Of a stretch of DNA of 64,000 nucleotides, positions 4,905 to 63,897 are shown piece by piece (the stretch's first letter is position 1; each line of letters starts with the position of its first letter). This DNA comes from Paraphaeosphaeria minitans. Lineage: Eukaryota > Ascomycota > Dothideomycetes > Pleosporales > Didymosphaeriaceae. The notes under the pieces were generated by a model. It saw only the letters and a program-made list of their open reading frames with translations, made no database searches and was not told where the DNA came from. The stretch lies in assembly GCA_015832175.1 (NCBI GenBank), contig WJXW01000005.1, forward strand, positions 2,624,572 through 2,688,571, given 5' to 3'. Made by a program: the position numbers and the translations under genes.

Positions 4905-5170
4905 AGCGTTAACCACATCACTATAGAGTAACTAACAGTTGCTGCAGCAGTAGGACAATTAACAGTATCTGTATTTACGTCTTTACTATCTGTAGTTATT
5001 TCTATAGCTAGACATAACGTCTTCTTATAAGCACGCTCTTTAGCCTAAGCTAGTATCTTCTTATTTTGTAACAACCGCACTATTAGGAGAGATAACACCT
5101 TCTTATCCTCCTTAACTTTCTTTTTATACTCCTTATAAGTCTTATCTAGCAACAACTAGCTTATGTTCAC
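4905..5170 (-). pseudogene. antisense ORF remnant in the 3' region of Gypsy copy 1
   Basis: On the minus strand this stretch reads as a fairly coherent Lys/Glu-rich peptide in one frame, broken only by TAG/TAA codons of the kind RIP makes from CAG/CAA. It sits between the chromodomain and the 3' LTR. Copy 2 also has a charged antisense reading frame in the same position, but with different sequence. Many fungal Gypsy-like elements carry extra antisense ORFs here. Function is unknown, and chance coding is possible in such biased DNA. Confidence 0.35.
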
Positions 5171-33290: not shown

Positions 33291-33319
33291 GAACGCACCT
33301 AGGAATCACCACTAGTATA

Positions 33320-33745
33320 GGGGCTAGCCTATAAAATAGACTAGTTAATTACCTTAGCGCCTAACAGCGCGTTAGGATTTATTAACGTAGCAGCTTATAC
33401 TAACTCCTCCTGCGCCTTAAGCGCTTCTAACTTGTCTATAGTACTTATACTACAATTAAATAATTCTTATTCTTTCTAATATAATTTCTTTTACTAATTG
33501 CGTAAGCGTGCTATCTTCTCTCGCGCCTAATAGGTGTAAAGGAGAGCTGCTTTAGCTAGTTCTTTCTTAATATAGAGCTTTGCCTCCTCTTTAGCCTCTA
33601 ACTTTTCTAACCTCTCTATTTTAGTATCTATTTTTAAATAATCTAGTAAAGGGATCTCTTTAGGCTTACACTTCTAGTTTCCCTATCTAACATAGTTAGT
33701 ACACTAAAAGTGTAAAAAAGAAAGATAATAAGCATATTTCTTCTT
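33320..33745 (-). pseudogene. antisense Cys-motif/coiled-coil ORF remnant in Gypsy copy 2
   Basis: Read leftward, one minus-strand frame gives a short Cys-containing start (C-T-N-Y-V-R ... K-C-K-P, near 33715-33670, probably a decayed C-x2-C...C motif), then a long Lys/Glu/Leu-rich coiled-coil-like stretch ending near 33350. The interruptions are TAG. Small antisense charged ORFs of this sort occur in fungal retroelements. Its role is unknown. Part of the same sequence remains in copy 3 at 44505-44620, where it is cut off. Confidence 0.45.
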
Positions 33746-42300: not shown

Positions 42301-44470
42301 AAAACAAGTTAGACCACACTAAGCACGTATGGATAGTACTAAAAGCACTAGACAAAGTATACCTTTATATTAAACTTAAGAAATGTAAGTTTAACATTAA
42401 ATAACTTAAATTCCTAGGACACATTATTACTATAGAAGGAATTAAGATAGCACTAAGTAAAGTTAAATATATTAAAAACTAGCCAATACTAAAGATAGCT
42501 AAGAACATCTAAGAATTCTTAAGATTCTGTAGATTTAATTAATAATTTATCTAAGATTACGTAAAGGTTACAATACCTTTAATAAATCTTATAAAGAAGG
42601 ACGTACCCTTTAAATAGACAGATAAGTATAGAATATTATTCTAACTCCTTAAGATAGTATGTATTATAGAACCTATTCTTATTTATTTTAGAAGCGATAA
42701 ACCACTACGCTTTAAAATAGACGCTAGCGATCTTACGCTAGGCGCCTACGCTAAATAAAAACATAATAGTAAATAGTACCTAATTACCTATTACTTATGT
42801 AAATTTAATAACGCTAAAGCACAATACAACGTACATAATAAAGAACTCTACGCTATTATTAAAGCCTTAAAGCACTAGAGGATTTACGCGCTTAGTTACT
42901 TAACGCTAGAAATCTACACAAATTATAAGAACCTTATAAGGTTTATAACAACAAAAGAACTTACGCCACGACAATAAAGATAGTTGCAAACTATAGGGCA
43001 GTATAAGTTTAAAATTATCTATATAGCTAGGAAAGAAAATGGCAGAGTAGACGCTCTTAGCCAACAAAGTAATCTAGTAGGAGAAAAGGTAAAAACTTTC
43101 TCTATAATCCTTTGTAAAGCCAAAGATAGATCTCTAGAGCTAATAGCGGAACTAAATTAACTTTTAGTAATTAACTAAGAAGTTCTAGAACATCTATATA
43201 CTAAGATTATCTAACAATACCACAATAACCCTATGTACGGACACCTAGGCATTACAAAAACAATAGAACTTATCTAAAGGAATTACACCTTTAAAGGAAT
43301 TAAGGAAGCTATAATAACTTACATCCACAAATATATAGAATACTAGAGAAATAAACATAGTATACATCTTAAATATAGAGAGATGTAAGTAATTAGAATA
43401 CTAATAGCACTATAGAAAAACATTACTATAGATTTTATTACAGAAATTCTAAACTCTAAAGATCTAACAACAGGAATTAAATACAACAGTATACTAGTAA
43501 TAGTCTATTAACTAACTAAGTATATTAAGCTCATTCCATGCTTTAAAAGAATAATAGTAAAGGAACTTACTTTTCTTATCTTAGACTAACTAATTAGACA
43601 CTACAGAATCCTAAAAATAATTATTAGCGATAGAGACAAGCTCTTCACGTTAAACTATTAGATAACGCTTATAACCCTGCTTAGAACAAAACAAAAACTA
43701 TTAACAGCTTACTATCTACAAACAAATAGATAGACAGAACGTACGAACCAAACTATAGAAACGTACCTACGCATCTACTATAACAGTTAAAAGAATAACT
43801 AGGTTTTATTACTACCTATAGTATAGTTAGCCTATAATAATAAAGTATTAGTAGTATTAGGACATACACTATTCTATGTAAACTATAGAAGACACCTACA
43901 TCTCTTTAACTAACAATTTCCTATAACAATTAAAGCAAAAGAAGCTATAGATATAGCAGAAAATATAGAGAAAATACACTAATAACTCTAAGAGAACCTT
44001 AAAAAAGCTTAACAGCAATTAATTTCTTACTAAAATTAAAAACAAAAAATAGCACCTTAGCTAAAGAAGGGGGATAAAGTATATCTACTTACAAAGAACC
44101 TTTAAACTTAGAAGAAAAAACACAAGAAACTAGATTATATTAAGGTTAGACTATTTTATATTTCTAAGCAAATATCACTAGTAAACTATAAGTTAGAACT
44201 ACCGCTAGATGCAAAGATATATCTAGTATTCCACATATTACTACTAGAACTAGTAGACCCTAAAACACTAGTTAAAACCACCTTCTATTACCAAACTTAG
44301 GAAGAAACTAAGTTTAAAGTAGAATAAATCCTATAAGTACGTAATGCGTACATAGACACTAAAGAATACCTTATTAAATAGAAAGGGTATTTGTCTAGTA
44401 AAAACACATAGGAACCTAAGGAAAACCTATTAAACTATTAATAACAGATAAACAACTTCTATAATTAAAC
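39310..44470 (+). pseudogene. gag-pol remnant of Gypsy copy 3
   Basis: The CCHC knuckle at 40147-40188 keeps its His but has lost the last Cys to Tyr. The reverse-transcriptase box YIDD is intact at 42273-42284, the only intact one of the three copies. Integrase is at about 43210-43900. The chromodomain at about 44290-44440 has the expected YLIK.KGY...NT.EP pattern but clearly different sequence from copies 1 and 2, although the flanks align closely. Stops are throughout. Confidence 0.87.
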
Positions 44471-44675
44471 ACTAGAAATTATAAAGAGACAACTAGAACG
44501 CACCTAGAAATTACTACTAGTATAAGGGCTAGCCTATAAAATAGACTAGTTAATTACCTTAGCGCCTAATAGCGCGTTAGGATTTATTAACGCAGTAGCC
44601 TACGCTAACTCCTCCTACGCCTATCTAAAAGAAAGAGGCGTTAGTAATCACAAACGCGCTAAGATTGGCTTAGCG

Positions 44676-44690
44676 TTAGGGTTAGAGTTA
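44676..44690 (+). repeat. interstitial telomere-like motif in unit 1
   Basis: TTAGGGTTAGAGTTA, two and a half near-telomeric repeats in the same orientation as the chromosome end, found at the same place in every unit. Confidence 0.6.
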
Positions 44691-45142
44691 ACAAATTAGG
44701 TAGGATTTAATACCAGAAACGCGTTAGACTAGGGGTAGAAACAATTCTATTCCCTAGCTATTTTTATTTCTTTCTTATTCCAATTTATCTTAACATAACC
44801 TCTTATACTAATCTACTATCTCTTATTTATAAAATAGGATAGTGGTAGCGCAGGGTTTAGCTATTACTTTTTACTACTAATTTATAATAGAGTTCTACTA
44901 GGACGCTTAAGCTTCTGCGTTAAGCCTAGCTAACAGAGTACTAATATTACTACATTAATAGAACTCTTAGTAGTAATAGTAACTAGTAGGAGAAAACTTA
45001 GCGTAAGCTAATATATAAAAGTATATTTATTTTATTAAAGAGTACAGCGTGCTTTACTGTAGTAAGTACAAAGCTAGTATAGAAAATCTTAATATATATC
45101 TCTGTTAAAAGTATAGTATACTAGTTAATAAATAGAGAAAAT

Positions 45143-45451
45143 GTCCGTACAGTTTATCGTACAAATAGCACTAAGTGAAATAGGGGCCTGCCTACCTATA
45201 GGGACCCGCACAAGGACCCACTACTTAGGTTAGCGCTAAGAGGTAGAGACTTCATAAAGCCTTGCCTACCTATAAGGACCTACACAAGGACCCCCTGCTT
45301 AAGTCAGCGCTAAGAGGCAGAGACTTTATAAAGCCCTCAGTGCCCCTTTGTACAATAGACAAGACGTAATTAATTGAACCTACTTCTTACCCTTTGCACG
45401 ATAGTATACTATCAACCCTTAAATGCTTAATTACAGATTAAGCCAAACCAA
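45143..45451. mobile_element. 309-bp insertion in TLH unit 1, MITE-like
   Basis: Absent from units 2-4. Flanked by a 7-bp duplication AGAAAAT (45136-45142, 45452-45458). Near its ends are inverted words TATCGTACAAA (45155-45165) and TTTGCACGATA (45393-45403, 10 of 11 bases complementary). It contains a 74-bp tandem duplication (about 45187-45338) and a perfect palindrome GATAGTATACTATC (45400-45413). It keeps many more C and G bases than the RIP-mutated host unit, so it probably arrived after RIP. No coding capacity. The family is not recognised. Confidence 0.55.
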
Positions 45452-48400
45452 TAGAAAATTTATTAAAAACTACACTCTTTTAAAAAGATAAGGGCTAGGC
45501 AGCGTTACGCTACTAAACGCTAGTAGACTACTAATCTAGGTCTTAAGAGCGCTGTTAGATAGCTTCTAATATAAGTAGCTAGTATATAGCTATTTTATAT
45601 AAAATAAAGGCTAGATATAACTACACTATAATAGTTATAGGTTAGCGTTTAAGATAGGATTAGATGCGCTCTACTAGAAGGTAAAGATATAGTTTTTCTT
45701 CCTTACTTTAGGATAGTAGCGGTACTTTATAGTTTACGTCCCTAATATAGCGGACAGTAGAGCAGACACTAGGGCACATAAAGAAGAGGTAGAAGACATT
45801 CTAGTAGAGTATATGTAAATATAGGAGGAGAGGAAGTAGTAAAAGTAGGTAATAGATATAAAAGTTACAAAAACAGATAAAATAGGCTAGTAAAAGTTTA
45901 TAGATTAGCTAGAGCACTTTATAAACCACAACTATATACACCTTACCTACGTAATCTAGCTGCCACGCTAGAATAAGCCTAAGTTATAGAAGGCTGTATA
46001 GGCTATAGAGTAGCTAGTAGAGTAGAGCGTCTAAGGGCTATTCTTACTACTATATAAAACCTAATAATAGGTAAAGAGTGCGTAGGCTAATAAGATCTAC
46101 TAGTAGCTAATAGCCTAACTATAGAACCTAGAGAGCTAGGCGTGCTATGCTAGATATATTATAATATTTATATATTATATCCTACGTATTATTGCTACTA
46201 AAGAAGTAGATAAAGAGAGTAAGGATATAAAGAGTAGTAAAGGCAGTAGCACTAATAATAGTAGTAATAGTAATAGTAGTAGCAGTAGTAACTATAGTAA
46301 TAAGAGCCCACCTAAAACCCACACAGGTTACTAAGTTAAAGTTAATCCTATAAAGGACGCGCAGGAGATGTTCCTATAGAAAGAGAACTAAAAGCTACTA
46401 GCTACTATACTCTAGAAGGCCCTAGACAGTAATAATAAAGCTGGCCACATCGTCCTAGTGCGCTAGATACTTAGTATATTTATTATAATAACCTACATCC
46501 GCAGTTTATTTAAGAGCAAGCTTATTTACTTTACTACTATACTTAGGTTTAATTTAGAGACACGTTAACTACGCACTACAAAGAACTATTTATATCTAGT
46601 GGCTAGGATAGTGTACTATATTTAGGTAATTAGTATTAAACACCTACTTCTACCCGCGCAATAGGAATAGCAGGGCTTAGTAGAATATAACTACTATCTT
46701 AACCTAAAAAAGCGCTTCCTAGCAGATAGGTCCTTTAGCCTAATAAGCTAGCTACTTAGTCTACTAGCCTATAGTAAGTTTATTAGTATGAATACTAGCA
46801 ACACAGGTAACGCCTTCTAGTTAGAGAATAAGAAGATCTTCTACCTTAACAGTAAACCTATTATTATACACTATTTCTAGCTAATGGCCTAAGAACTATT
46901 AACTAAGCTAGAGGACCTACTCTAGGGTAAGCTACTCTAGGTCTACAGTCCTAGTTAGTGTTTCCTAATCTAGCTTAACCTAATTTAGGACAATGTCGCG
47001 TACACATAATACAATATATCCTTTATTACGCACAGGAATAACAGCCTAGAGAATAGCTTATAATAGATACTTAAATAAATAATATAAAATAAGTAGAGTT
47101 AGAAGCTCCGCTCTAAAGATAAGACTTAGAACGTTACACGTATAAAGCTATACCTATGTAGTGTTAAGCGCTTTAAGGAACTAGAGCTTACTAATCTCTA
47201 TATTAATAAAGAAATACTAGGTTAGGGCACTAAGATTACAGCAATACAGTTCCGCAATAGAGCACTATAGGACCATAACCTCTTTATAATAGACAGACAG
47301 ATTATAATAGTAGTCCATTACTATAAGTCGCAGTTATAGTTTAATAAGCCTAAGGTTATCTTAAAGTTTCTGCCCTTATAGCTTTTATAGGTGTTTATTA
47401 TATACCTAGCGTACGTATAGCTATTTAAAGAGTACCTAACTATAGAAGTGCTAGGCGGTAGCTTTACTAACTACCTATAGGCTAATAAGTAGAGTCTGTA
47501 GTATATAGATTACCTAACGCAGGTGCTAAAGCGCAAGATAGGTAAGTACCTAGAGGTGGCGCTAAATATAATTAACTACTAACACACAGTAGTAGGAATT
47601 AGGTAGGAGGTAGTTAAGGATATATTTAGGCAGGGTTACTAAGACAAGGTGGGTAAGATTAAAGAGCCTAAGGTTAATAAGAATTAAAGAGCCTATTAGA
47701 GCTATAGAGCGCGTAGATAACTAAGATTAGTCTAGCTAACTATAGCGTGCCTATTAATATTATAAAGCATCTTAGTATATGTTTAATTAAGACCTTCTAG
47801 CTACTTAGTTAGCGCTGGCACGAGTTTCTAGGTATAGATAGGTATAAGGTATAACCTAGTGCAGCTAGAAAGTAGTAATAGGAAGAAGAAGGAGATAGTT
47901 AAAATAAAGGGAGAGATAATTTTACTATAGTTATACTATAGAAGAAAACTAAACTAGAGGGTGTTACTATAAGTGCGATGTCTAGAGCGATATAGTAGGC
48001 ACTTAGCCAGACTACTATATTATTTAAGTTAAACAAGTAGAAATAGGCTATGTTTACTATAGTAAATAGTTAGACACTGCTAGTAGTTATGCTCCCTATA
48101 GGTAGAGGCAAGAGTCTACTATTTATAGTACTAGCCTACCTTAACTATACTAGCGTAACTATAGTTATAGTGCTATTCTACGGGCTAATTAAGGACCTAG
48201 TAATATATATCTACACGCGTAGTATTAACTGCATAGAATAGGTTAACTATAAAATAAACCTAGTCTCTATTATACTAGTTAGTGCTAATATCGCCAGTAG
48301 TGTAAGATTCCTAAAGTATACCAGCTTACTAAAGGATAAGAAGCAGGTATAGTAGGTAGTAATTAATAAGTGCTATCTTATTATTACCTCTAGCTATTAG

Positions 48401-49200
48401 CGGCTAAAGCTAGCGAAGCTGTAGAATCTACACGTACTTATATACCTAATTATACTACTAACAGTAACGCTACCGCCTATACTAGAGAGGGTATTAGGTA
48501 GAAGCATGTTAATTTAAGCTACTACCTATATTTAGGCCAGCATAGTGCGGCCTAACATCTAGTATTATATATTATGGTGTAGGCGAGGTAAGGCCATAGA
48601 GGTAGCACTAGCTATATATTAATAGTAGTAGGAATAGCTATAGAGTAGCTAGAAAGGCGTTATTTACTACTATAGTAGGACTATATATAAAATACTAGTA
48701 AGGGCGCTAGGCTATAAGCACTACTACACTAGTAAGTTAGATTAAACTAAGATCCTTACTAGCTAGCTAGATAAAGGTAGGCTTATTATAGTAATATTAG
48801 CGCTTAGTACTAGGGTTAACTTTCCTAGTATTATATTTATCTTACACGTAGGCATACTATAGAGCATAATTAACTACTACTAGGAGAGTGGGCGTGTAGG
48901 GCGTAGCGGCAAGGTGGCAGACTTAGTTATTATTATTAAGCTAGGTAAGGTAGAGAAGTAAATTTAGAAGGGTAGAGCGTTAGTAGATATATACACAATA
49001 GGCATGTTTATTAAGAGTAAAAACTACTAGCGTAGGAAAATAAGTAAGTACATAGATAGGCAGCAAGTAGTGTGTAGTAATATAGACTTAGCTAGGTGTA
49101 ATTAATATAGTAAGGGCTAGATTAAGTAGTAGTAGACCTAGTCGCTTATAGTAAGTAAGTGGCAACAGGTAGAGGTAAGTATAGATAAGCTATAGGCCTA

Positions 49201-52200
49201 TCCAAGAGGAAGAGGCGTCGGTGGTCACAGACGCGCTAAGATTGGCTTAGCGTTAGAGTTAGAGTTAACGAATTAGGTAGGATTTAATACTAGAAACGCG
49301 TTAGACTAGGGGCAGAAACAATCCTATTCCCTAGCTATTTCTATTTCTTTCTTATTCTAATTCATCTTAATGTAACCTCTTATACTAATCTACCATCTCT
49401 TATTTACAAAATAGGATAGTAGTAGTGTAGGGTTTAGCTATTACTTTTTACTACTAATTTATAATAGAGTTCTACTAGGACGCTTAAGCTTCCGCGTTAA
49501 GCCTAGCTAACAGAGTACTAACATTACTATATTAATAGAACTTTTAGTAGTAATAGTAACTAGCAGAAGAAAACTTAGCGTAAGCTAATATACAAAAGTA
49601 TATTTATTTTATTAAGGAGTATAGCGTGCTTTACTGTAGTAAGTATAAAGCTAGTATAAAAAATCTTAATATACATCTCTGTTAAAAGCATAGTGTACTA
49701 GTTAATAAATAGAGGAAATTTATTAAAAGCTGCGCTCTTTTAAGAAGATAAGGGCTAGGCAGCGTTACACTACTAGACGCTAGTAGACTACTAATTTAGG
49801 TTCTAGAAGCGCTATTAGACAGCTTCTAATATAAGTAGCTAGTATACAGCTATCTTACACAAAATAAGGGCTAGATATAACTACACTATAATAGTTATAG
49901 GTTAGCGTTTAAGATAGGATTAGATGCGCTCTACTAGAAGGTAAAGATATAGTTTTTTTTCCCTACTTTAGAACAGTAGCAGTACTTTGTAGTTTATGTC
50001 CCTAATATAGTAGATAGTAGAGCAGACGCTAGGGTATATAAAAAAGAGGTAAAAGACATTCTAGCAAAGTACACGTAAACACAGGAGAAGAGGAAGTAGC
50101 AAGAGTAGGTAATAGATATAGAAGTTATAAAGATAGATAAAATAGGCTAGTAAAAGTTTATAGAGTGGCTAGAGCACTTTACAAACTGTAACTATATACA
50201 CCTTACTTACGTAATCTAGCTACTACGCTAGGACAAGCCTAAGCTATAAAAGGCTGTATAGGCTATAGAGTAGCTAGTAGAGCAGAGCGTCTAAGGGCTG
50301 TCCTCGCTATTATATAAGACCTAATAATAGGTAAAGAGTGCGCAGGCTAATAAGATCTACTAGCAGCTAATAGCCTAACTATAGAACCTAGAGAGCTAGG
50401 CGCGCTATACTAGATACATTATAATATTTATATACTATATCCTATGTATTATCGCCGCCAAAGAAGTAGACAAGGAGAGCGAGAATACAGAGAGTAGCAA
50501 AGGTAGTAGCACTAATAATAGCAGTAATAGTAACAGTAGTAGTAGTAGCAACTATAGTAATAAGAGCCCACCTAAGGCCTACACAGGTTACTAAGTTAAA
50601 GTTAATTCTATAAAGGACGCGCGGGAGATGTTCCTATAAAAAGAGAACTAAAAGCTATTAGTTACTATACTCTAGAAGGCCCTAGACAGTAATAATAAAG
50701 CTGGCTACATTATCCTAGTGCGCCAGATACTTAGTACGTTTATTATAACAACCTATATCTACAGTCTATTTAAGAGCAGGCTTATTCACTTTACTACTAT
50801 ACTTAGGTTTAATTTAGAGACACGTTAACTACGCACTATAAAGAACTATTTATATCTAGTGGCTAGGATAGTGTACTGCGTTTAGGTAATTAGTATTAAA
50901 CACCTACTTCTACCCACGCAATAGGAATAGCAGGGCTTAGTAGAACGTAACTACTATTTTAACCTAAAAAAGCGCTTCCTAGCGGACAGGTCCTTTAGCC
51001 TAATAAGCTAGCTACTTAGTCTACTAGCCTATAGTAAGTTTATTAGTATAAATACTAGTAATGTAGGCAACGCCTTCTAGTTAGAGGATAAAAAGATTTT
51101 CTACCTTAATAGTAGACCTATTATTATACACTATTTCTAGCTAATAGCCTAAGAACTATTAACTAAGCTAGAGGACCTACTCTAGGGTAAGCTACTTTAG
51201 GTCTATAGTTCTAGTTAGCGTTTCCTAATTTAGTTTAACCTAATTTAGGATAATATCGCGTGTATATAACGCAGTATATTCTTTATTACGTATAGGAAAA
51301 ATAGCCTAGAGAATAGCTTATAATAGATACTTAAATAGATAATATAGGATAAGTAGGGTTAGAAGCTCCACTCTAGAGATAGGACTTAGAACGTTACATA
51401 TATAAAGCTGTACCTATATAGTGTTAAGTGCTTTAAGGAGCTAGAGCTTACTAATCTCTACATTAATAAAGAAATGCTAGGTTAGGGCACTAAAATCACG
51501 TTAATACAGTTCTACAATAAAGCACTACAGGACTATAACCTCTTTATAATAGATAGATAGATTATAATAGTAGTCTATTACTATAAGTCGTAGTCGCAGT
51601 TTAATAAGCCTAAGGTTATTTTAAGGTTCCTGCCCTTGCAGCTCTTATAGGTACTTATTATATACCTAGCGTATGTGCAGCTGTTTAAAGAGTACCTAAC
51701 TATAGAGGTGCTAGGTAGTAGCTTTACTAACTACTTATAGGCTAATAAGTAGGGTCTATAGCACATAAATCACCTAACATAGGTGCTAAAGCGTAAAATA
51801 GGTAAGCACCTAGGAGTAGCGCTAAACACGCTTAACTACTAACACACAGTAGTAGGGATTAGGCAGGAGGTAGTTAGGGATGTGTTTAGGCAGGGTTACT
51901 AAGACAAGATAGGTAAGATTAAAGAGCCTAAAATTAATAAGAATAGTAAGAGCCTATTAGAGCTATAAAGCGTATAGATAACTAAGATTAGCCTAGCTAA
52001 CTATAGCGTGCCTATTAATATTATAAAGCATTTTAGTATACGTTTAATTAAAACCTTCTAGCCGCTTAGTTAGTGCTAGCACAAGTTTCTAGGTATAGAT
52101 AGGCATAAGATACAACCTAGTATAGCTAGGAAGTAGTAGTAGGAAAAAGAAGAAGATAGTTAAGACAAAGGGAGAAATAATTTTACTATAGTTATACTAT

Positions 52201-52740
52201 AGAAGAAAACTAAACTAGAGGGTGTTACTATAAGTATAATATCTAGAGCTATATAGTAGGCACTTAGCTAGGCTACTATATTATTTAAGTTAGATAAGTA
52301 GGAATAGGCCATGTTTACTATAGTAAACAGTTAGACACCGCTAGTAGTTATACTCCCTATAGGTAGAGGCAAGAGTCTACTATTTATAGTGCTAGCCTAC
52401 CTTAACTATACTAGCGTAACTATAGTTATGGTACTATTTCGCGCGCTAATTAAGAATCTAGTAATATGTATCTACGCGCACGGTATTAACTACGTAGAAT
52501 AGGTTAACTATAAAACAAATCTAGCCTCTATTATACTAGTTAGTGCTAATATCGCTAGTAGTGCAGGGTTCCTAAAGTATACTAGCTTACTAAAGGATAA
52601 GAAGTAGCTATAGTAGGTAGTAATTAATAAGTGCTATTTTATTATTACCTCTAGCTATTAGCGGCTAAAGCTAGCGAAGCTGTAGAATCTACACGTACTT
52701 ATATACCTAATTATACTACTAACAGTAACGCTACCGCCTA
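49201..52740 (+). pseudogene. TLH unit 2: RIP-destroyed helicase copy, truncated before the second helicase lobe
   Basis: Starts at the same left edge (YCCAAGAGGAAGAGGCG) and aligns with unit 4 up to 61175 (about residue 1091, just after helicase motif III). It therefore lacks the second RecA-like lobe, the zinc module and the 3' region. The start codon is ATA at 49464-49466. There are numerous transition stops. The noncoding leader is far less changed than the coding region. Confidence 0.93.
49253..49267 (+). repeat. interstitial telomere-like motif in unit 2
   Basis: TTAGAGTTAGAGTTA, the unit 2 form of the motif at 57693-57707, with one G-to-A change in the first repeat. Confidence 0.55.
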
Positions 52741-55700
52741 TCCAAGAGGAAGAGGCGTTGGTAGTTACAGACGCGCTAAGATTGGCTTAGCGTTAGGGTT
52801 AGAGTTAACAAATTAGGTAGGATTTAATACCAGAAACGCGTTAGACTAGGGGCAGAAACAATCCTATTCCCTAGCTATTTCTATTTCTTTCTTATTTTAA
52901 TTCATCTTAACGTAACCTCTTATACTAATCTACTATCTCTTATTTACAAAATAGGATAGTAGTAGCGTAGGGTTTAGCTATTACTTTTTACTACTAATTT
53001 GCAATAGAGTTCTACTAGGACGCTTAAGCTTCTGTGTTAAGCCTAGCTAACAGAGTACTAATATTACTACATTAACAGAACTCTTAGCAGCAATAGTAAC
53101 TAGTAGGAGAAAACTTAGCGTAAGCTAATATATAAAAGTATATTTATTTTATTAAGGAGTATAGCGTGCTTTGCTATAGTAAGCATAAAGCTAGCATAGA
53201 AAATCTTAATATACATCTTTATTAAAAGCATAGTGTACTAGTTAATAAATAGAGGAAATTTATTAAAAGCTGTGCTCTTTTAAGAAGATAAGGGCTAAGT
53301 AGCGTTACACTACTAGACGCTAGTAGACCACTAATCTAGGTCCTAGGAGCGCTATTAGACAGCTTTTAATATAAGTAGCTAGTATATAGCTATCTTACGC
53401 GAAATAAGGGCCAGATATAACTACACTATAATAGTTATAAGTTAGCGTTTAAGACAGGATTAGATACACTCTACTAGAAGGTAAAGATATAGTCTTTCTT
53501 CTCTGCTTTAGGATAGTAGCAGTACTTTATAGTTTACGTCCCTAATATAGCGGACAGCGGAGCAGACGCTAAGGCACATAAAGAAGAAGTAGAAGATATT
53601 CTAGCAGAGTATATATAAACATAGGAGGAGAGGAAGCAGTAAGAGTAAGTAATAGATATAGAAGTTATAAAGACAGATAAAATAGGCTAGTAGAAGTTTA
53701 TAGAGTAGCTAGAGCACTTTATAAACTGCAACTATATACATTTTACCTACGCGATCTAGCTACTACGCTAGAATAAGCCTAAGCTGTAGAAGGCTGCGTA
53801 AGCTATAGAGTAGCTAGTAGAGTAGAGCGTCTAAAGGCTATCCTTACTACTACGTAAGACCTAATAATAGGTAAAGAGTGCGTAGGCTAATAAGATCTAC
53901 TAGCAGCTAATAGCCTAACTGTAGAACCTAGAGAGCTAGGCGCGCTATACTAGATATATTATAATATTTGTGTGCTATATCCTACGTATTATTACTACTA
54001 AAGAAGCAGACAAGGAGAGTAAGGATATAAAGAGTAGCGAGGGCAGTAGCACTAATAATAGTAGTAATAGTAATAGTAGTAGTAGTAGTAACTATAGTAA
54101 TAAGAGCCTACCTAAGGCCTACACAGGTTACTAAGTTAAAGTTAATCCTATAAAGGACGCGCAGGAGATGTTCCTATAGAAAGAGAACTAAAAGCTGCTA
54201 GCTACTATACTCTAGGAGGCCCTAAATAGTAATAATAAAGCTAGCCACATTGTCCTAGTGCACTAGATGCTTAGTACGTTTATTATAACAACCTACATCT
54301 ATAGTCTATTTAAGAGTGGGCTTATTCACTTTACTATTATGCTTAGGTTTAATTTAGAGACACGTTAACTGTGCACTATAAAGAACTATTTATATCTAGT
54401 GGCTAGGATAGTGTACTACGTTTAGGTAATTAGTGTTAAATACCTACTTCTGCCCGCGTAACGGGAACAGTAGGGCTTAGTAGAATATAACTACTATCTT
54501 AACTTAAAAAAGCGCTTCCTAGTGGATAGGTCCTTTAGCCTAATAAGCTAGCTGCTTAGTCTACTAGCCTATAGCAAGTTTATTAGCATAAATACTAGTA
54601 ATATAGGCAACGCTTTCTAGTTAGAGGATAAGAAGATCTTCTACTTTAATAGTAGACCTATTGTTATACACTATTTCTAGCTAATAGCCTAAGAACTGTT
54701 AACTAAGCTAGAGGACCTACTCTAGGGTAAGCTGCTTTAGGTCTACAGTCCTAGTTAGCGTTTCCTAATTTAGCTTAACCTAATTTAGGATAATATTACG
54801 TGTACACAACGTGGCATGTCCTTTATTACGCATAGAAATAACAGCCTAGAGAATAGCTTATAATAGATGCTTAAATAGATAATATAGAATAAGTAGGGTT
54901 AGAAGCTTTACTTTAGAGATAGAACTTGGAATGTTATATGTGTAAAGCTATACCTACACAGTATTAAGCGCTTTAAGGAGCTAAAGCTTGCTAATCTCTA
55001 CATTAATAAGGGAATACTAGATTAAGGCACTAAGATTATATTAATATAGTTCTATAATAGAGCACTATAGGACTGTAACCTCTTTATAATAGACAGACAG
55101 ATTATAATAGTAGTCTGTTACTATAAGTTATAGTCGCAGTTTAATAAGCCTAAGGTTATCTTAAGGTTCCTGCCCTTACAGCTCTTGTAGGTGCTTATTA
55201 TATATCTAGCGTACGTATAGCTGTTTAAAGAGTACCTAACTGTAGAGGTACTAGGCGGCAGCTTTACTAACTACCTATAGGCTAATAAGCAGGGTCTATA
55301 GTATATAGATTACCTAATATAGGTGCTAAAGCGTAAGATAGGTAAGCACTTAGGGGTAGCGCTAAACACGCTTAACTACTAACACACAGCAGTGGGGATT
55401 AGGCGGGAGGTAGTTAGGGCTATATTTAGATAGGGTTACTAAGATAAGGTAGGTAAGATTAAAGAGCCTAAGGTTAATAAGGATAGTAAGAGCCTATTAG
55501 AGCTGTAGAGCGCGTAGATAACTAAGATTAGTCTAGCTAACTATAGCGTGCCTATTAATATTATAAAGCATTTTAGTATATGTTTAGTTAAGATCTTCTA
55601 GCCGCTTAGTTAGCGCTAGTATAAGTTTCTAGGTGTAGATAGGCATAAGGTACAACCTAGTGCAGCTAGGAAGCGGTAATAGGAAGAAGAAGGAGATAGT

Positions 55701-57640
55701 TAAAACAAAGGAAGAGATAATCTTACTATAGTTATACTATAGAAGAAGACTAAACTAGGGGGTATTACTATAAGTGTAATGTCTAGAGCGATATAGTAGG
55801 CACTTAGCCAGGCTACTGCATTATTTAAGTTAGATAAGTAGGAATAGGCTATGTTTGCTATAGTAAATAGTTAGACACCGCTAGTAGTCGTGCTCTCTAT
55901 AGGTAGAGGTAAGAGTCTGCTGTTTATAGTGCTAGCCTGCCTTAACTATACTAGTGTAACTGTGGTTATAGTGCCATTCCGCGCACTAATTAAGGATCTA
56001 GTAATATATATCTGCGCGCGCAGTATTAACTGCGTAGAATAGGTTAACTATAAGACAAACCTAGCCTTTATTATGCTAGTTAGTGCTAATATTGCTAGCA
56101 GCGTAGAGTTCCTAAAGTATACTAGCTTACTAAAAGATAAGAAGTAGCTGTAGTAGGTAGTAATTAATAAGTGCTATTTTATTATTACCTCTAGCTATTA
56201 GTAGCTAAAGCTAGCGAAGCTATAGAATCTACGTGTACTTACATACCTAATTGTACTACTAATAGTAACGCTACTGCCTATACTAAAAAGGGTGTTAGGT
56301 AGAAGTATATTAATTTAAGCTACTACTTATATCTAGACTAGTATAGTGTAGCCTAATATCTGGTATTACGTGTTATAGTGTGGGCGAGGTAAGGCCATAA
56401 AGGTAGTACTAGCTATATATTAACAGTAGTAGGAACAGCTGCGGGGTAGCTAGAAAGGCGTTATCTACTACTATAGTAGGACTATATACGAAGTGCTAGT
56501 AGGGGCGCTAGACTATAAGTACTACTACGCTAGCGAGTTAGATTAAACTAAGATTCTTGCTAGCTAGCTAGATAAAAGTAGGCTTATTATAGCAATATTA
56601 GCGCTTAGTATTAGGGTTAACTTTCCTAGCATTATATTTATCTTACATGTAGGTATGCTATAGAGCATAATTAACTACTACTAAGAGAGTAGGCGTGCGG
56701 GGCGTAGTAGTAAAGTGGCAGACTTAGTTATTATTATTAAGCTAGGTAAAGTAGAGAGGCGAATTTAGGAAAGTGGAGCGTTAGTAGACGTATGCGTAAT
56801 AAGCATGTTTATTAAAAGTAAAGGCTACTAGCGCAGGAAGATAAGCGAGTATATAGATAGGTAGTAGGTAGTGTGTAGTGACATGGACTTAGCTAGGTGC
56901 AATTAATGTGGTAAGGGCCAAATTAAGTAGTAGTAGGCCTAGTCACTTATAGCAAGTAAGTGGCAAAAGGTGGAGGTAAGCATAGACAAGCTATAGGCTA
57001 GGTGTGCAATATACTAAGTGCTAGGGTAGGCAGGCTAGTAAGAGTATAGAATAATACTGTGCACAGCGCAGCCTATAATAATAGGAAGGGATATAGATAA
57101 GTTCTAGTAAGGGGTGCGTAACGCTAGGAACTACTATAGCTATTAAAGGTGCTAGGTAAGCCAAAAGTAGTGCGTAATAGGGCAGGACGTTGTGAACTTA
57201 TACTAGTAGCCAAATATTATAATTCCTGTAGCTAGGGTAGTAATAGGGATTGCGGATAGGCTTAAGATTATTTAGTAGTATAGGTTCTAGGGTAAGTGCA
57301 AGGTTTCGTGCTAGGCGTACTAGGTATAGCTTGGACAGCGCCATTATAAACGTATCTAGGGCGAATTTCTTAGTAATACAATAGTAGTAGCTATAAGAGT
57401 TATTATAAAACTTAAAGAGAAGAATTAGGCCTAGAATATAGTACTTTACTTCTATTTTTTAAAAAATCTCACTTTGTATATATTATAGCAGAGTTAGCCT
57501 ATCTATTATAGATTTTATTTTACTTTACTATATATTAGTATAATAGGATGTAAGTTTTAGAAATTATAGAAAAAATAGAAACTAGAGTCTTCTAGAAGAG
57601 TTTAGGAATTGTATAAAATAAGTAAATTTCTAAAAACCTA
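52741..57640 (+). pseudogene. TLH unit 3: full-length RIP-destroyed helicase copy
   Basis: A complete 4900-bp unit that aligns from end to end with unit 4. The start is ATA at 53004-53006 and the frame terminator lies at 57426-57428. Coding changes are transitions, with little or no indel change. The last ~200 bp (57429-57640) are almost identical to the sequence after the intact gene (62326-62537). It is the best RIP comparison: for example CTCGAG in unit 4 is CTTAAG here, and TGCTGGG is TACTAGG. Confidence 0.94.
52793..52807 (+). repeat. interstitial telomere-like motif in unit 3
   Basis: TTAGGGTTAGAGTTA at the same offset from the unit's left edge as in units 2 and 4. Confidence 0.6.
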
Positions 57641-57903
57641 CCCAAGAGGAAGAGGCGTCGGTGGTCACAGACGCGCTAAGATTGGCTTAGCGTTAGGGTT
57701 AGAGTTAACGAATTAGGTAGGATTTGATACCAGAAACGCGTTAGACTAGGGGCAGAAACAATCCTATTCCCCAGCTATTTCTATTTCTTTCTCATTCTAA
57801 TTCATCTCAACGTAACCTCTTATACTAATCTACCATCTCTTATTCACAAAATAGGATGGTGGTGGCGCAGGGTTTAGCCATTACTTTTTACTACTAATTC
57901 GCG
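57641..57903 (+). promoter_or_regulatory. upstream leader of the intact TLH gene
   Basis: The 263 bp between the unit's left edge and the ATG must hold the proximal promoter or 5' UTR if the gene is transcribed from within the unit. Its sequence is the best-conserved noncoding part among the four units and carries the telomere-like motif TTAGGGTTAGAGTTA at 57693-57707. No TATA box or known factor site is certain. Confidence 0.45.
57693..57707 (+). repeat. interstitial telomere-like motif upstream of the intact TLH gene
   Basis: TTAGGGTTAGAGTTA, 197 bases before the ATG, in telomere orientation and conserved in all four units. It could bind telomere-repeat proteins or mark an old telomere junction. 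Confidence 0.6.
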
Positions 57904-60900
57904 ATGGAGTTCTGCTGGGACGCTCGAGCTTCCGCGTCAAGCCCAGCTAACAGAGTACTAACATCACCACATCAACAGAACTCTCAGCAGCAACAGCAAC
58001 TAGCAGGAGAAAACTTAGCGCAAGCTAATATACAAAAGTATATTCATTTTGTTAAGGAGTACGGCGTGCTTTGCTGCAGCGAGCACAAAGCCGGCATAGA
58101 AAATCTCGATGTACATCTCCGTCAAAAGCATAGTGTACCAGTTAACGAACGGAGGAAATTCATTGAAAGCTGCGCTCTTTTGAGAAGACAAGGGCTGGGC
58201 AGCGTTACGCTACCAGACGCTGGCGGACCGCCAATCCAGGTCCTAGGAGCGCCGTTGGACGGCTTCCAATGCAAGCAGCCAGCATGCAGCTATCTTACGC
58301 GAAACAAGGGCCAGATACGACTACACTGCAACAGTCATGGGTTAGCGTTCAAGACGGGATCAGATGCGCTCTACCAGAAGGTAAAGATGCAGTCTTTCTT
58401 CCCCGCTTCAGGACGGCAGCGGTACTTTGTAGTTTGCGTCCCCGATGTAGCGGACAGCGGAGCAGACGCTAGGGCGCATAAAGAAGAGGTGGAAGACATT
58501 CTGGCAGAGTACGCGCGAACGCAGGAGGAGAGGAAGCGGCAAGAGCAGGTGATGGATGCAGAAGTCGCAAAGACAGACAAGACAGGCTGGTGGAAGTTTA
58601 CAGAGTGGCCAGAGCACTTTGCGAACCGCAACTGCGTGCACCTTGCCCACGCGATCCGGCTGCCGCGCCGGGACGAGCCCAAGCTGCAGAAGGCCGCGCG
58701 GGCTGTGGAGCAGCTGGTGGAGCAGAGCGTCCGAGGGCTGTCCTCGCTACCACGTGAGACCCGACGATGGGTGAAGAGTGCGCAGGCCAACGAGATCCAC
58801 CAGCAGCCGATAGCCCGACTGCAGAACCCAGAGAGCCAGGCGCGCTATGCTGGGTACATTGTGATGTTCGTGTGCTATGTCCTACGTATCGTCGCCGCCG
58901 AAGAAGCGGACAAGGAGAGCGAGGACACGGAGAGTAGCGAGGGCAGCAGCACCGACGACAGCAGCGACGGCGACGGCAGCAGCAGCGACTGCAGTGATGA
59001 GAGCCCGCCCGAGGCCCACACAGGTCGCCGAGTCAAAGTTGATCCCATGAAGGACGCGCGGGAGATGTTCCCATGGAAAGAGGACCAAAAGCTGCTGGCC
59101 ACCATGCTCTGGGAGGCCCTGGACAGCAACGACGAAGCCGGCCACATCGTCCTAGTGCGCCGGATGCTTAGTACGTTCATCATGACGACCTACATCCGCA
59201 GTCCGTTTGAGAGCGGGCTCGTTCACTTTGCTGCTGTGCTTGGGTTCGATTCAGAGACACGTCGACTGCGCACCGCGAAGAACTATTCGTATCTAGTGGC
59301 TGGGATGGTGTACTGCGTTCGGGTGATCAGTGTCGAACACCTACTTCCGCCCGCGCAACGGGAACAGCAGGGCTTGGTGGAACGTGACCACTATCTTGAC
59401 CTGAGAAAGCGCTTCCTAGCGGACGGGTCCTTCAGCCCGACGAGCCAGCTGCTTAGTCTGCTGGCCTATGGCAAGTTCATCGGCATGAATACCGGCAACG
59501 CGGGCAACGCCTTCTGGTCAGAGGATAAGAAGATCTTCTACCTCAACGGTAGACCCATCGTTATACACCATTTCCAGCTGATGGCCCAAGAACTGTTGAC
59601 CGAGCTGGAGGACCTGCTCTGGGGTGAGCTGCTCTGGGTCCGCAGTCCCGGTCAGCGTTTCCCGATCCGGCTCGACCTGATTCAGGACGATGTCGCGTGC
59701 ACACGACGCGGCATGTCCTTTGTCACGCACGGGAACAACGGCCTGGAGAATGGCTTGCGATGGATGCTCGAACGGATGATGCAGGACGAGCAGGGTCGGA
59801 AGCTCCGCTCCGGAGATGGGACTTGGAACGTTGCACGCGTGAAGCTGTACCTGCGCAGTGTCAAGCGCTTCAAGGAGCTGGAGCTTGCCAATCTCCACAT
59901 TGACGAGGGAATGCCAGGTCGGGGCACCGAGATCACGTCGATGCGGTTCCGCAACGGAGCACTGCAGGACCGCAACCTCTTCGTGATGGACGGACAGATC
60001 ATGACGGTGGTCCGTTACTACAAGTCGCAGTCGCAGTTCGACAAGCCCAAGGTCATCCCAAGGTTCCTGCCCTCGCGGCTCTCGCAGGTGCTCGTTGTGT
60101 ACCTGGCGTACGTGCAGCCGTTCGAAGAGTACCTGACCGTGGAGGTGCTGGGCGGCAGCTTCACCGACTACCTGTGGGCCAACGAGCAGGGTCCGTGGCA
60201 CACGGATCACCTGACGCGGGTGCTGAAGCGCGAGACGGGCAAGCACCTGGGGGTGGCGCTGAACACGCTCGACTACCGACACACGGCGGTGGGGATTGGG
60301 CGGGAGGTGGTTGGGGATGTGTTTGGGCGGGGTTACCAAGACGAGGTGGGTGAGATTGAAGAGCCCGAGGTCGACGAGGACGGTGAGAGCCCGTTGGAGC
60401 TGCAGAGCGCGCGGACGACCAAGATCGGCCTGGCCAACTACAGCGTGCCCATCGATATTGTGAAGCATCTCAGCATGCGTTCGATCGAGACCTTCCGGCC
60501 GCTCAGTCGGCGCTGGCACGAGTTTCTAGGTGTGGATGGGCACGAGGTACGACCCAGTGCAGCCAGGAAGCGGCGATGGGAAGAAGAAGGAGACGGTCAA
60601 GACAAAGGGAGAGATGATCTCGCCGTGGTCGTGCCGCAGAAGAAAACCAAACCAGGGGGTGTCACTGCGAGTGCGATGTCTAGAGCGATGCAGCAGGCAC
60701 TTGGCCAGGCTACTGCATCGTTCAAGTCGGACGAGCAGGAACAGGCCATGTTCGCTATGGTGAACGGTCAGACACCGCTGGTGGTCGTGCTCCCCACAGG
60801 TGGAGGCAAGAGTCTGCTGTTCATGGTGCCGGCCTGCCTCGACCATGCTGGCGTGACCGTGGTTGTGGTGCCGTTCCGCGCGCTGATCGAGGACCTGGCA

Positions 60901-62325
60901 ACGCGTATCCGCGCGCGCGGTATCGACTGCGTGGAATGGGTTAACCACGAGACGAACCCGGCCTCCGTCATGCTGGTTGGTGCTGATGTCGCCGGCGGCG
61001 CGGGGTTCCTGAAGTATGCCAGCTCGCTGAAGGATAAGAAGCAGCTGCAGCGGGTGGTGATTGACGAGTGCCATCTCATCATCACCTCCAGCCATTGGCG
61101 GCCGAAGCTGGCGAAGCTGCGGAATCTGCGCGTGCTTGCATGCCCGATCGTACTGCTGACGGCGACGCTACCGCCCGTGCTGGAGGGGGTGTTGGGTAGA
61201 AGCATGTTGATTCAAGCTGCCACCTACATCCGGGCCAGCACGGTGCGGCCCAACATCCGGTATTACGTGTCGTGGTGTGGGCGAGGTAAGGCCATGGAGG
61301 CAGCACTGGCCATGTGTCGACGGCGGCAGGAACAGCTGCGGGGTGGCCAGAAAGGCGTCATCTACTGCCACAGCAGGACTGCATGCGAAATGCTGGCAGG
61401 GGCGCTGGGCTGCAAGCACTACCACGCTGGCGAGTTGGATCGAACCGAGATCCTCGCCAGCTGGCTGGACGAAGGCGGGCTCATCGTGGCAACATCAGCG
61501 CTCGGTACTGGGGTTAACTTTCCCAGCATCGTGTTCGTCTTGCACGTAGGCATGCCATGGAGCATGATCGACTACTGCCAGGAGAGTGGGCGTGCGGGGC
61601 GTAGCGGCGAGGTGGCGGACTCGGTCATCATCGTCGAGCCAGGTGAGGTGGAGAGGCGAATCCGGGAGGGTGGAGCGTCGGTGGACGTGTGCGCGATGGG
61701 CATGTTCATCGAGAGCGAAGGCTGCCGGCGCGGGAAGATGAGCGAGTACATGGATGGGCAGCGGGTAGTGTGCAGTGACATGGACTCGGCTGGGTGCGAT
61801 CGATGCGGTGAGGGCCGGATCGAGTGGCAGCAGGCCCAGTCGCTCGCGGCGAGTGAGTGGCAAGAGGTGGAGGCAAGCATGGACGAGCTGCGGGCCGGGT
61901 GTGCGATATGCTGGGTGCTGGGGCGGGCAGGCTGGCAAGAGCACAGAACGATGCTGTGCACGGCGCAGCCCATGATGATGGGGAGGGACATGGACGAGTT
62001 CCGGCGAGGGGTGCGCGACGCTGGGAACTGCCACAGCTGTCGAAGGTGCTGGGTGAGCCAGAAGTGGTGCGCGACAGGGCAGGACGTCGCGAACTCGTGC
62101 CAGTGGCCGAACATTGTGATTCCTGTGGCCAGGGCAGCAACGGGGATTGCGGATGGGCTTGAGATCATTCGGCAGTGCGGGTTCCAGGGCGAGTGCGAGG
62201 TTTCGTGCCAGGCGTACCAGGTATGGCTTGGACAGCGCCATTGTGAACGTATCTGGGGCGAATTTCTTAGTAATGCAATGGTAGTAGCTATAAGAGTTAT
62301 TATAAAACTTAAAGAGAAGAATTAG
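57904..62325 (+). CDS. TLH: telomere-linked RecQ-type DNA helicase with zinc finger and recombinase-like domain (intact)
   Basis: A 1473-residue predicted nuclear ATP-dependent DNA helicase. Domains in order: a Gln-rich start; an OrsD-like N-terminal region with Cys/His pairs at 57-76 and a canonical C2H2 finger C123-x4-C128-x12-H141-x3-H145; an acidic Ser/Asp/Glu linker (333-367); a tyrosine-recombinase-like region with R673, K707, R792-H793 and Y846; RecQ helicase with motif 0 near 940-949, Walker A PTGGGKS 964-970, DECH 1054-1057, TAT 1086-1088 and QESGRAGR 1226-1233; a RecQ zinc module C1274, C1290, C1298, C1301; and a second Cys cluster 1333-1399 typical of fungal TLH proteins. Such genes sit next to telomeres in many fungi and are thought to act at chromosome ends. 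The ATG lies in CGCGATGGA and is lost in all dead copies. The body is GC-rich, unlike everything around it; the last ~25 codons are AT-rich and the exact C-terminus is less certain. No intron is needed. Confidence 0.93.
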   Translation: MEFCWDARASASSPANRVLTSPHQQNSQQQQQLAGENLAQANIQKYIHFVKEYGVLCCSEHKAGIENLDVHLRQKHSVPVNERRKFIESCALLRRQGLGSVTLPDAGGPPIQVLGAPLDGFQCKQPACSYLTRNKGQIRLHCNSHGLAFKTGSDALYQKVKMQSFFPASGRQRYFVVCVPDVADSGADARAHKEEVEDILAEYARTQEERKRQEQVMDAEVAKTDKTGWWKFTEWPEHFANRNCVHLAHAIRLPRRDEPKLQKAARAVEQLVEQSVRGLSSLPRETRRWVKSAQANEIHQQPIARLQNPESQARYAGYIVMFVCYVLRIVAAEEADKESEDTESSEGSSTDDSSDGDGSSSDCSDESPPEAHTGRRVKVDPMKDAREMFPWKEDQKLLATMLWEALDSNDEAGHIVLVRRMLSTFIMTTYIRSPFESGLVHFAAVLGFDSETRRLRTAKNYSYLVAGMVYCVRVISVEHLLPPAQREQQGLVERDHYLDLRKRFLADGSFSPTSQLLSLLAYGKFIGMNTGNAGNAFWSEDKKIFYLNGRPIVIHHFQLMAQELLTELEDLLWGELLWVRSPGQRFPIRLDLIQDDVACTRRGMSFVTHGNNGLENGLRWMLERMMQDEQGRKLRSGDGTWNVARVKLYLRSVKRFKELELANLHIDEGMPGRGTEITSMRFRNGALQDRNLFVMDGQIMTVVRYYKSQSQFDKPKVIPRFLPSRLSQVLVVYLAYVQPFEEYLTVEVLGGSFTDYLWANEQGPWHTDHLTRVLKRETGKHLGVALNTLDYRHTAVGIGREVVGDVFGRGYQDEVGEIEEPEVDEDGESPLELQSARTTKIGLANYSVPIDIVKHLSMRSIETFRPLSRRWHEFLGVDGHEVRPSAARKRRWEEEGDGQDKGRDDLAVVVPQKKTKPGGVTASAMSRAMQQALGQATASFKSDEQEQAMFAMVNGQTPLVVVLPTGGGKSLLFMVPACLDHAGVTVVVVPFRALIEDLATRIRARGIDCVEWVNHETNPASVMLVGADVAGGAGFLKYASSLKDKKQLQRVVIDECHLIITSSHWRPKLAKLRNLRVLACPIVLLTATLPPVLEGVLGRSMLIQAATYIRASTVRPNIRYYVSWCGRGKAMEAALAMCRRRQEQLRGGQKGVIYCHSRTACEMLAGALGCKHYHAGELDRTEILASWLDEGGLIVATSALGTGVNFPSIVFVLHVGMPWSMIDYCQESGRAGRSGEVADSVIIVEPGEVERRIREGGASVDVCAMGMFIESEGCRRGKMSEYMDGQRVVCSDMDSAGCDRCGEGRIEWQQAQSLAASEWQEVEASMDELRAGCAICWVLGRAGWQEHRTMLCTAQPMMMGRDMDEFRRGVRDAGNCHSCRRCWVSQKWCATGQDVANSCQWPNIVIPVARAATGIADGLEIIRQCGFQGECEVSCQAYQVWLGQRHCERIWGEFLSNAMVVAIRVIIKLKEKN

Positions 62326-62537
62326 GCCTAGAATATAGTACTTTACTTCTATTTTTTAAAAAATCTCACTTTGTACATATTATAGTAGAGTTAGCCTATC
62401 TATTATAGATTTTATTTTACTTTACTATATATTAGTATAATAGGATGTAAGTTTTAGAAATTATAGAAAAAATAGAAACTAGAGTCTTCTAGAAGAGTTT
62501 AGGAATTGTATAAAATAAGTAAATTTCTAAAAACCTA
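62326..62537 (+). other. 3' flank of TLH unit 4 shared with unit 3
   Basis: AT-rich 212 bp, nearly identical to 57429-57640 after unit 3, ending TAAAAACCTA. It probably includes the 3' UTR. No clear polyadenylation signal is claimed. Confidence 0.6.
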
Positions 62538-62989
62538 AGTACTAGTATTGATACTATCTTATAACTTATTAGAATTTAATAAAATTATAATTAAACTATA
62601 TTTCTACTTTTTTATAAACTTTACCACTAGTTATTAAATAGTAGTATACTTTTTTATATACTTATAATAATTTTTACTTATTTAGTAATCATAAGTTTTA
62701 CTTTAAATAGTTTATACTAATAGTATTATATAACTACTAGAGTGAAACTAAATTTAATTTTATATTAATAATTTATATTTCTATTAAAAAGAGAATATAA
62801 AAGAAATTATTAAAGTAGTAGTATTTATAAGTAGAAGTAGGACTTATAAATAATAAAACTAAATTACTAAACTATGTAGTAGATAATAAATAATTTCTAG
62901 TTATTATAAAATTAAGAAAAAAAAACTAAAGGGTTATTTTTTATTAAAGGGAAAATATATATTTCTAAAGTTATAGAAAATATAAAGTA
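62538..62989. other. AT-rich subterminal sequence without recognisable features
   Basis: A very AT-rich stretch following the last shared base of the helicase unit. No ORF, RNA gene or known repeat was seen. Confidence 0.5.
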
Positions 62990-63620
62990 ATATAACTTTT
63001 TAAAAAGTAATATAAGGTAAAGTTATTAACTATTCTATACAGGTATATAAGGTCGTGTTAAGTTATATAAAAGGATATAAATTATTATAAAGGGACATAA
63101 AGCTATATAAAGTAATATGTAGTAAAGTTATTAAATATTTTATAAAGTTATATAAGGTTGTATTAAGTTATATAAAGGGATATAAATTATTATAAAGTAA
63201 TATAAAGGTATATAAAGTAATATAAAGTAAAGTTATATAAGGTTGTATTAAGTTATATAAAGTGATATAAATTACTATAAAGCTATATAAAGTGATATAT
63301 GGTAAAGTTATTAGATATTTAATAAAGTTATATAAAGTGATATAAATTGTAATAAAGTAATATAAAGCTATATAATACTATATAACTTTCTATAAAATAG
63401 TATAAGGTACAGTTATTAAATATTTTATAAAGGTTTATAAAGTAGTGTTAAGTTGTATAAAGTGATATAAAGTAACATAACTTTCTATAAAGGGATGTAA
63501 GGTGAAGTTATTAAATGTTATATAAAGTGGTATAAAGCTATATAAAGTAAAATAAAGTTATGTAGAGTAATATAGGATGGACTTATTAAATGTTGTTTAA
63601 AGTTATTAGTTATACTATAA
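62990..63620 (+). repeat. irregular AT-rich subterminal repeat array
   Basis: Built of reiterated AAGTTATATAA, AGTGATATAAA and TATAAAGTAATATAA words. A longer motif, [GT]AAAGTTATTAAATATTTTATAAAG, recurs in variant form near 63012, 63122, 63304, 63411, 63502 and 63587, giving an irregular spacing of about 80-180 bp. No coding potential. Confidence 0.75.
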
Positions 63621-63776
63621 AACAAACTTAGTAAGGAGAGAAGAATAAGCTTCTTATTATAAAACTTTATATAGTAGAGAAAAGTTAGGACTTTTTTAGA
63701 AAAGAGATATAATATTATAACTAGATAAGGAGTATACTAATATAAGTTAAAGGGAGTTAAAGTAGGGAAAAATCTT

Positions 63777-63887
63777 GAGGTAGAATAGGAAACCCGTTTA
63801 TAAGTGTATAGGAGAGGTAGGATAGGAAACCCGTTCGTGAGTGCAAGGGAGAGGTGGGGTGGGTGGGCCCGTCGGGATGGGAAGAAC
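63777..63887 (+). repeat. 37-bp subterminal tandem repeat, three units
   Basis: Units begin GAGGT at 63777, 63814 and 63851, exactly 37 bp apart. The first two share GAGGTAG[AG]ATAGGAAACCCGT. The third is a diverged G-rich version containing GGGGTGGGTGGG and GGGATGGG, which could form a G-quadruplex. The first unit carries transitions relative to the second. Confidence 0.8.
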
Positions 63888-63897
63888 CGCTGGTGCG

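Follow-up and report, generated by a model that had tools for sequence, protein, structure and literature searches.

In Paraphaeosphaeria minitans, contig C5 terminates on its right side in a unit carrying the gene of a telomere-linked helicase (TLH), and units of this kind begin across the genome (47.45 Mb, 30 contigs) at one and the same base, next to many different sequences with which they share no more than a few nucleotides. The stretch analysed here, referred to as the window, comprises the last 64,000 nt of this contig. Genes of the TLH family are, to our knowledge, common at the chromosome ends of fungi and have no agreed function. From the fixed edge, the short match and the capped ends with the edge at full distance, described below, we conclude that telomere-bearing units were added in one direction to chromosome ends that had lost their own telomere. 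The units are probably a terminal mobile element, which telomere-less ends capture by short pairing at its fixed proximal terminus, and the evidence suggests that this element re-caps broken chromosomes while lacking its own reverse transcriptase.

Four units follow one another in the window, all on the forward strand. The terminal one (unit 4; 57637..63897) is complete and 6.3 kb long, leading from the edge CCTACCC through the open reading frame (ORF) of the helicase (57904..62325; 1473 aa) and an AT-rich tandem repeat array recognised by self-matches (62980..63606) to a telomere-adjacent block, which is followed by the telomere tract (TTAGGG)n up to the contig end (63898..64000). Unit 1 (44620..49198), unit 2 (49197..52738) and unit 3 (52737..57640) carry repeat-induced point mutations (RIP) and break off at points equivalent to 61896, 61175 and 62537, respectively. 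These cuts, and a common left edge of all four units, had been described in an earlier note on this DNA, and both hold: in alignments to the terminal unit all of them begin at one identical base, at 44620, 49197, 52737 and 57637, the note's edges having been shifted 4 bp to the left in order to take in CCTA. That the sequence to the left ends in CC was likewise seen, and is refined here as an overlap of target and unit comprising CC, CCT or CCTA; unit 3 has its final CCTA in common with unit 4. The joining core CCTAY lies at 57637..57641, where Y is C in the terminal unit and T in units 1–3 and many other copies. Unit 1 adjoins a repeat (44120..44622; labelled gypsy in the earlier note) that is cut at ...ACG^CCT and matches 32945–33414 with 80.6%. 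This second copy runs on uninterrupted, with CCTTAAG after 33414, and constitutes the empty site (32945..33421).

Edges were searched genome-wide with a 24-mer located 16–39 bp inside the edge, allowing up to three mismatches, which yielded 75 places, copies without this seeded stretch being invisible to the search. The 75 edges extracted differ from these places in that one diverged relic on C15 failed the pattern, whereas the window's unit 1, absent from the list of places, was included; a further edge on C12, read from the distal end, stands outside the 75. The 75 left-edge copies are distributed over 22 contigs, and their flanks, collapsed for RIP, form 54 distinct groups. The start CCTA[C/T] is found at the identical base in 72 of 75 edges, and the remaining three, reading GCTA, ACTA and ACTA, vary by only 1–2 nt. 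No flank motif was detected upstream of the 75 edges, with at most 0.07 bit at each of the 12 preceding positions, and no poly(A) was found at the joints of the extracted edges. Extended homology to the left of the edge, which the earlier note had named along with a varying edge as speaking against its reading, was seen solely at junctions that have spread (nine of the 54 flank groups, with 2–10 members each). Its expectation of the same junction in unrelated flanks was borne out, and its proposal that ends were lost repeatedly, and that a unit starting at a defined point was added after each loss, gains genome-wide support.

Among 40 scored copies out of 89 candidates, 22 show by score no mismatch to the first 600 bp of the terminal unit and 17 show one mismatch per 600 bases; 13 of these 17 carry T instead of C at unit position 5, and both bases are found at this position at four junctions. 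At 57655–57692 of the window, 18–56 bp inside the edge, two small inverted repeats are predicted side by side and are followed by a TTAGGG-like stretch; this region, together 18–70 bp inside the edge, is a possible protein binding site. A GC-rich, diverged helicase relic lies internally on C15 at about 1.241–1.244 Mb (L096, L129), where a 5′ fragment (unit 18–580, 76% identity) faces an inverted 3′ fragment (unit 4492–3712, 68%). Such a head-to-head layout resembles what an ancient fusion between two chromosome ends would leave.

In order to recover the targets, another copy of the flank repeat that runs uninterrupted through the junction was taken as the empty site, which was possible for 43 of the 54 junctions, the other 11 having no copy that met the cut-offs. 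The overlap between target and unit amounted to 0 nt in four junctions, 1 nt in six, 2 nt in four, 3 nt in nine, 4 nt in 12 and 5 nt in eight. When the same comparison was slid along the same sequences as a null, an overlap of at least 2 nt, seen in 33 of 43 junctions, was obtained in 3.05% (p = 1e-41), and one of at least 4 nt, seen in 20 of 43, in 1.2% (p = 4e-27). Thirty-one targets begin with CC, and 20 of these read CCTA, as compared to 38.8% as the background frequency in these sequences (p = 0.003). At position 1, three off-register junctions have the base matching the target and not the C of the unit; at position 3, target and product disagree in 11 junctions, and there the product carries the T of the unit. 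The joint can therefore be placed to about 1–2 nt, and reads ...NC^TAYCCAAGAGG.

An independent check on the edge comes from the other side of the unit. A genome-wide search for the distal, telomere-adjacent 24-mer gave 33 places (32 exact, one with one mismatch), all of them adjoining a contig end and none between units. In 31 of these 33 capped ends the left edge lies at full-unit distance, while the other two are readable only in part; the distance from edge to contig end is 6,349–6,417 bp in 30 of them, and the 31st was read on C12. A left-truncated unit, as left by a reciprocal exchange, was seen in none of the 31 capped ends checked. The remaining contig ends number 27; of 20 that were retrieved 16 were readable, and TTAGGG was present in none of these 16; six stand outside the check, and the left end of C9 begins inside a unit. 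The cuts in older units are biased distally, as six of 17 fall within the final 110 bp, which holds seven of 251 CC sites (p = 4.5e-6), and this fits the loss of a telomere plus a little DNA ahead of the next addition.

The copies also differ in age. Over the first 210 bp, 30 of the 33 edges located within 6.5 kb of a contig end differ from the terminal unit of the window by no more than one mismatch, as opposed to 12 of the 42 edges further in (Fisher p = 3e-8), three of the 33 sitting on contigs that stop inside a unit. RIP-direction changes make up 427 of 562 mismatches, a total that takes in one internal copy with 128, which is probably out of register. Dozens of near-identical terminal units show little RIP and most internal copies are mutated, for which protection and refreshing by exchange are both conceivable. 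The peculiar junction g17 lies beside two mutated and two fresh units, and from this pattern terminal units have evidently been refreshed by homologous exchange after the junction was formed. Likewise, junction g00, cut at unit position 4986, is present in ten copies, several of them at an equal spacing of 4,987 bp, and has evidently spread by homologous exchange. In old units on C1 and C10 (L107, L108), the AT-rich array is interrupted, at a different position in each case, by a repeat that starts with TAATATTATTAGGACTAAGG and whose body matches 5883–9111 of the window.

The encoded protein is a telomere-linked helicase that combines a zinc finger, a predicted tyrosine-recombinase fold and a RecQ helicase. 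Above the Pfam cut-offs it contains OrsD (PF12013, E = 3.6e-9; aa 48–145, 58045..58338), which we take to be the current name of DUF3505, as well as DEAD (E = 3e-15), Helicase_C (E = 2e-12) and an overlapping ResIII. The helicase core (aa 941–1235, 60724..61608) is of the RecQ type of superfamily 2, its profile matching BLM, RECQ5 and RecQ structures, and the gene is multi-copy and located directly at telomere repeats, as expected of a TLH. Those helicase homologues whose source is named come from ascomycetes, e.g., Pyrenophora, Didymella, Aureobasidium and Exophiala. For the central region no Pfam family exceeded its cut-off, and a relationship to recombinases was not detected by Pfam or by profile comparison with a small Xer set. 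The AlphaFold models of this region have a predicted local distance difference test (pLDDT) score of 75.6 and 81.0 and a predicted template modelling (pTM) score of 0.50 and 0.66; among the matches listed (best 33 and best 38) they match tyrosine recombinases and topoisomerases, while a plain Foldseek search gave no match at E ≤ 0.001. The models thus point to a tyrosine-recombinase-fold domain at approximately aa 532–878 (59497..60537).

An active tyrosine recombinase has the catalytic set R-K-H-R-[H/W]-Y. According to the assignment, which combines motif and approximate structural register, the domain retains R673, K707, R792, H793 and H855 and carries F864 at the nucleophile position. In the 102 homologues compared, R673 (RxxE) is conserved in 100 of 100, K707 in 101 of 101, R792 in 102 of 102 and H855 in 94 of 102, and the His after the second Arg is nearly invariant; the His position of HxxR is occupied by Leu in 82 of 102 and by His in 11. 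The nucleophile position, nine residues past H855, is Phe in 101 of 101 homologues, so that the catalytic set is incomplete; a Tyr occurs elsewhere in aa 849–880 in 13 of 99. Strict conservation without the nucleophile suggests that the domain may bind DNA or handle strands rather than cleave them. No reverse transcriptase was found in the ORF or in the four antisense frames scanned.

Taken together, the data require a donor terminus exact to 1–2 nt, a short match in the recipient, one-way transfer through to a telomere and recipients that have lost theirs; we favour protein-guided capture with copying or joining, and classical recombinase chemistry is unlikely. The element has a fixed proximal terminus (CC^TAYCCAAGAGG) and the telomere itself as its distal terminus. 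In the mechanism we propose, a chromosome would first lose its telomere and some DNA, exposing CC, preferably CCTA, and the exposed end would pair over 2–5 nt with the proximal terminus of the unit, whereupon the chromosome would gain the whole unit and its telomere without reciprocal exchange. The nucleophile-altered recombinase-fold domain and the zinc finger may hold the proximal terminus while the RecQ motor opens it, and any end with a matching 3′ terminus might then be captured and either extended to the telomere in a guided process resembling break-induced replication or joined to a free linear unit. Later homologous exchange between ends would keep the terminal units alike and spread some junctions.

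Several points weigh against this reading. All evidence comes from one genome, and the role of the protein as the driver is inferred from its fold, conservation and location. Three of 75 copies point inward, so that there must also be rearrangement or some other route. TA is preferred behind CC to a moderate degree, and 10 of 43 targets overlap by less than 2 nt in the nearest uninterrupted copy; seven of these ten read TCTA or CTA, which in our judgement could be RIP products of CCTA or CCA. The completeness of units was judged by both ends and their distance, the interior having been read solely for the unit of the window. Terminal units are not immune to RIP, because RIP-mutated units sit at no fewer than three of the capped ends, namely C2 left and C17 right, both within the 33 edges near contig ends, and C12 right, which is outside them. 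Within chromosome arms, the proximal unit was older than the distal one in 21 pairs and younger in 12, with six equal, which is not significant (p = 0.08).

Among the other explanations, ordinary homologous exchange between similar subtelomeres, unequal crossing-over included, accounts for the ten copies and the partly equal spacing of g00 and for the mutated and fresh units around g17, but it is unable to make 54 different flanks with one edge, or a match of 2–5 nt at most of them. As the origin of the junctions it is already contradicted and we give it next to no credence. The earlier note had likewise rejected unequal crossing-over; exchange does spread junctions once they are made. Host repair alone would leave the helicase as a passenger, the edge being a fragile or nuclease-cut site in the donor and the freed terminal fragments being joined by microhomology end joining. 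A microhomology of 2–5 nt is typical of this pathway, and breakage could fall near the two predicted inverted repeats 18–56 bp inside the edge. We nevertheless consider it unlikely, as the edge is exact to 1–2 nt in 54 junctions, which is tighter than expected of breakage at a hairpin, the terminal unit has an open helicase frame and the family is strongly conserved.

The earlier note had left a choice between a recombinase acting at a short core and microhomology repair, of which the short matching core was confirmed, while the Phe at the nucleophile position speaks against a classical recombinase. Site-specific recombination, in which the recombinase-fold domain of the TLH or another tyrosine recombinase, e.g., a Starship captain, would swap strands at a CCTA core, is accordingly distinctly unlikely: reciprocal exchange would also give left-truncated terminal units, which none of the 31 capped ends has, the core match reaches 4 nt or more in only 20 of 43 targets, and the relationship to recombinases escaped both the sequence comparisons and plain Foldseek at E ≤ 0.001. 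RNA-templated addition, in which an RNA of the element would pair at its end with the chromosome 3′ end, which the reverse transcriptase of a retrotransposon would then extend, as for HeT-A or for Y′ with Ty1, merits equally little confidence, if not slightly less. The gene is a single open frame in the terminal unit, and a fixed end with a pairing of 0–5 nt can result from target-primed reverse transcription; the mobilisation of Y′ by Ty1 is moreover reported in PMC4700185. However, no reverse transcriptase was found in the frames scanned, the gene reads toward the telomere, so that an antisense RNA would be required for the chromosome end to act as primer, incomplete copying should shorten units under the telomere repeats, where 31 of 31 capped ends checked have the full distance, and the joints are free of poly(A).

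Going beyond this genome, fungal TLHs could be the genes of a distinct class of telomere-ended capping elements without reverse transcriptase, in which a protein combining a RecQ helicase with a Phe-type recombinase fold captures broken chromosome ends at a 4-base match to CCTA and restores the telomere in one step; this generalisation is tentative and we regard it as possible rather than probable. If it is true, this class would represent an element-encoded route of telomere maintenance and give TLH genes a function, and if the protein does drive the capture, many fungi may have an element-encoded backup of telomerase that reshapes their subtelomeres. Through the catalogue of edges, what had been a vague “subtelomeric repeat” becomes an element whose terminus, target rule and age structure can be measured, and the recombinase fold with Phe in place of Tyr is now named as a testable domain.

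As for known systems, Helitrons combine an HUH Rep domain with a Pif1-type helicase and have 5′ TC and 3′ CTRR ends; the unit differs in that no Rep or Pif1 Pfam matches were obtained, its helicase is of the RecQ type and 27 of 75 units begin with CCTACC without TC. Starships carry a DUF3435 captain with a catalytic Tyr at one end and have a short core in common with their target. The unit resembles Starships and Cryptons, the tyrosine-recombinase elements of fungi, in that its proximal end holds a gene for a recombinase fold, whereas here the nucleophile position is Phe and the element ends in the telomere instead of a second copy of the core. The unit is not a Starship, and the protein had no match to DUF3435 (PF11917) at E up to 1, nor did this family appear among the best 25 of 40 families for 32 members. 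Twenty matches to the captain family DUF3435 do occur on C15, C8 and C20, some with internal stops, so tyrosine-recombinase elements are present elsewhere in this genome. HeT-A is added terminally with a fixed proximal end and erodes distally before the next addition, and its gene has the opposite orientation to that of the TLH unit. MoTeR, FoTeR and terminal Penelope-like elements behave likewise, and the unit shares this mode of addition and erosion, whereas a reverse transcriptase, which telomeric non-LTR retrotransposons and Penelope-like elements encode, was not found in the frames scanned and telomere repeats are absent from its proximal junction. Y′ elements spread through existing homology or by Ty1 cDNA, whereas here the recipient needs only 2–5 nt.

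Saccharomyces Y′ elements and type I survivors are likewise helicase-encoding subtelomeric units that amplify at ends when telomeres fail, according to PMC4700185, which treats Y′-Ty1 and HeT-A, and PMC4522978. Telomere failure with tandem amplification at subtelomeres is described for Magnaporthe (PMC8381367). Neither a fixed proximal terminus, a CC or CCTA target rule nor a recombinase-fold domain is described for TLHs in the cited passages, and no report of any of them was found in the literature searched, which included little subscription material; the word “helicase” does not occur in the passages of PMC13068351. What the published TLHs of Ustilago maydis, Magnaporthe, Metarhizium, Leptosphaeria and Fusarium share with the present unit, is a RecQ-like gene at the subtelomeres, present in numerous copies of which some are full and others truncated (PMC12857005, PMC7473861), such TLH regions occurring alongside FoTeRs in the former source. 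Subtelomeric RecQ genes are also described in passages on M. graminicola (PMC4522978) and, in many copies, on Agaricus (PMC7473861), and copies of a RecQ telomere-linked helicase on Leptosphaeria (PMC3411245). The telomere-associated units of Colletotrichum have one orientation to the telomere and carry a helicase together with DUF3505 (PMC5576322).
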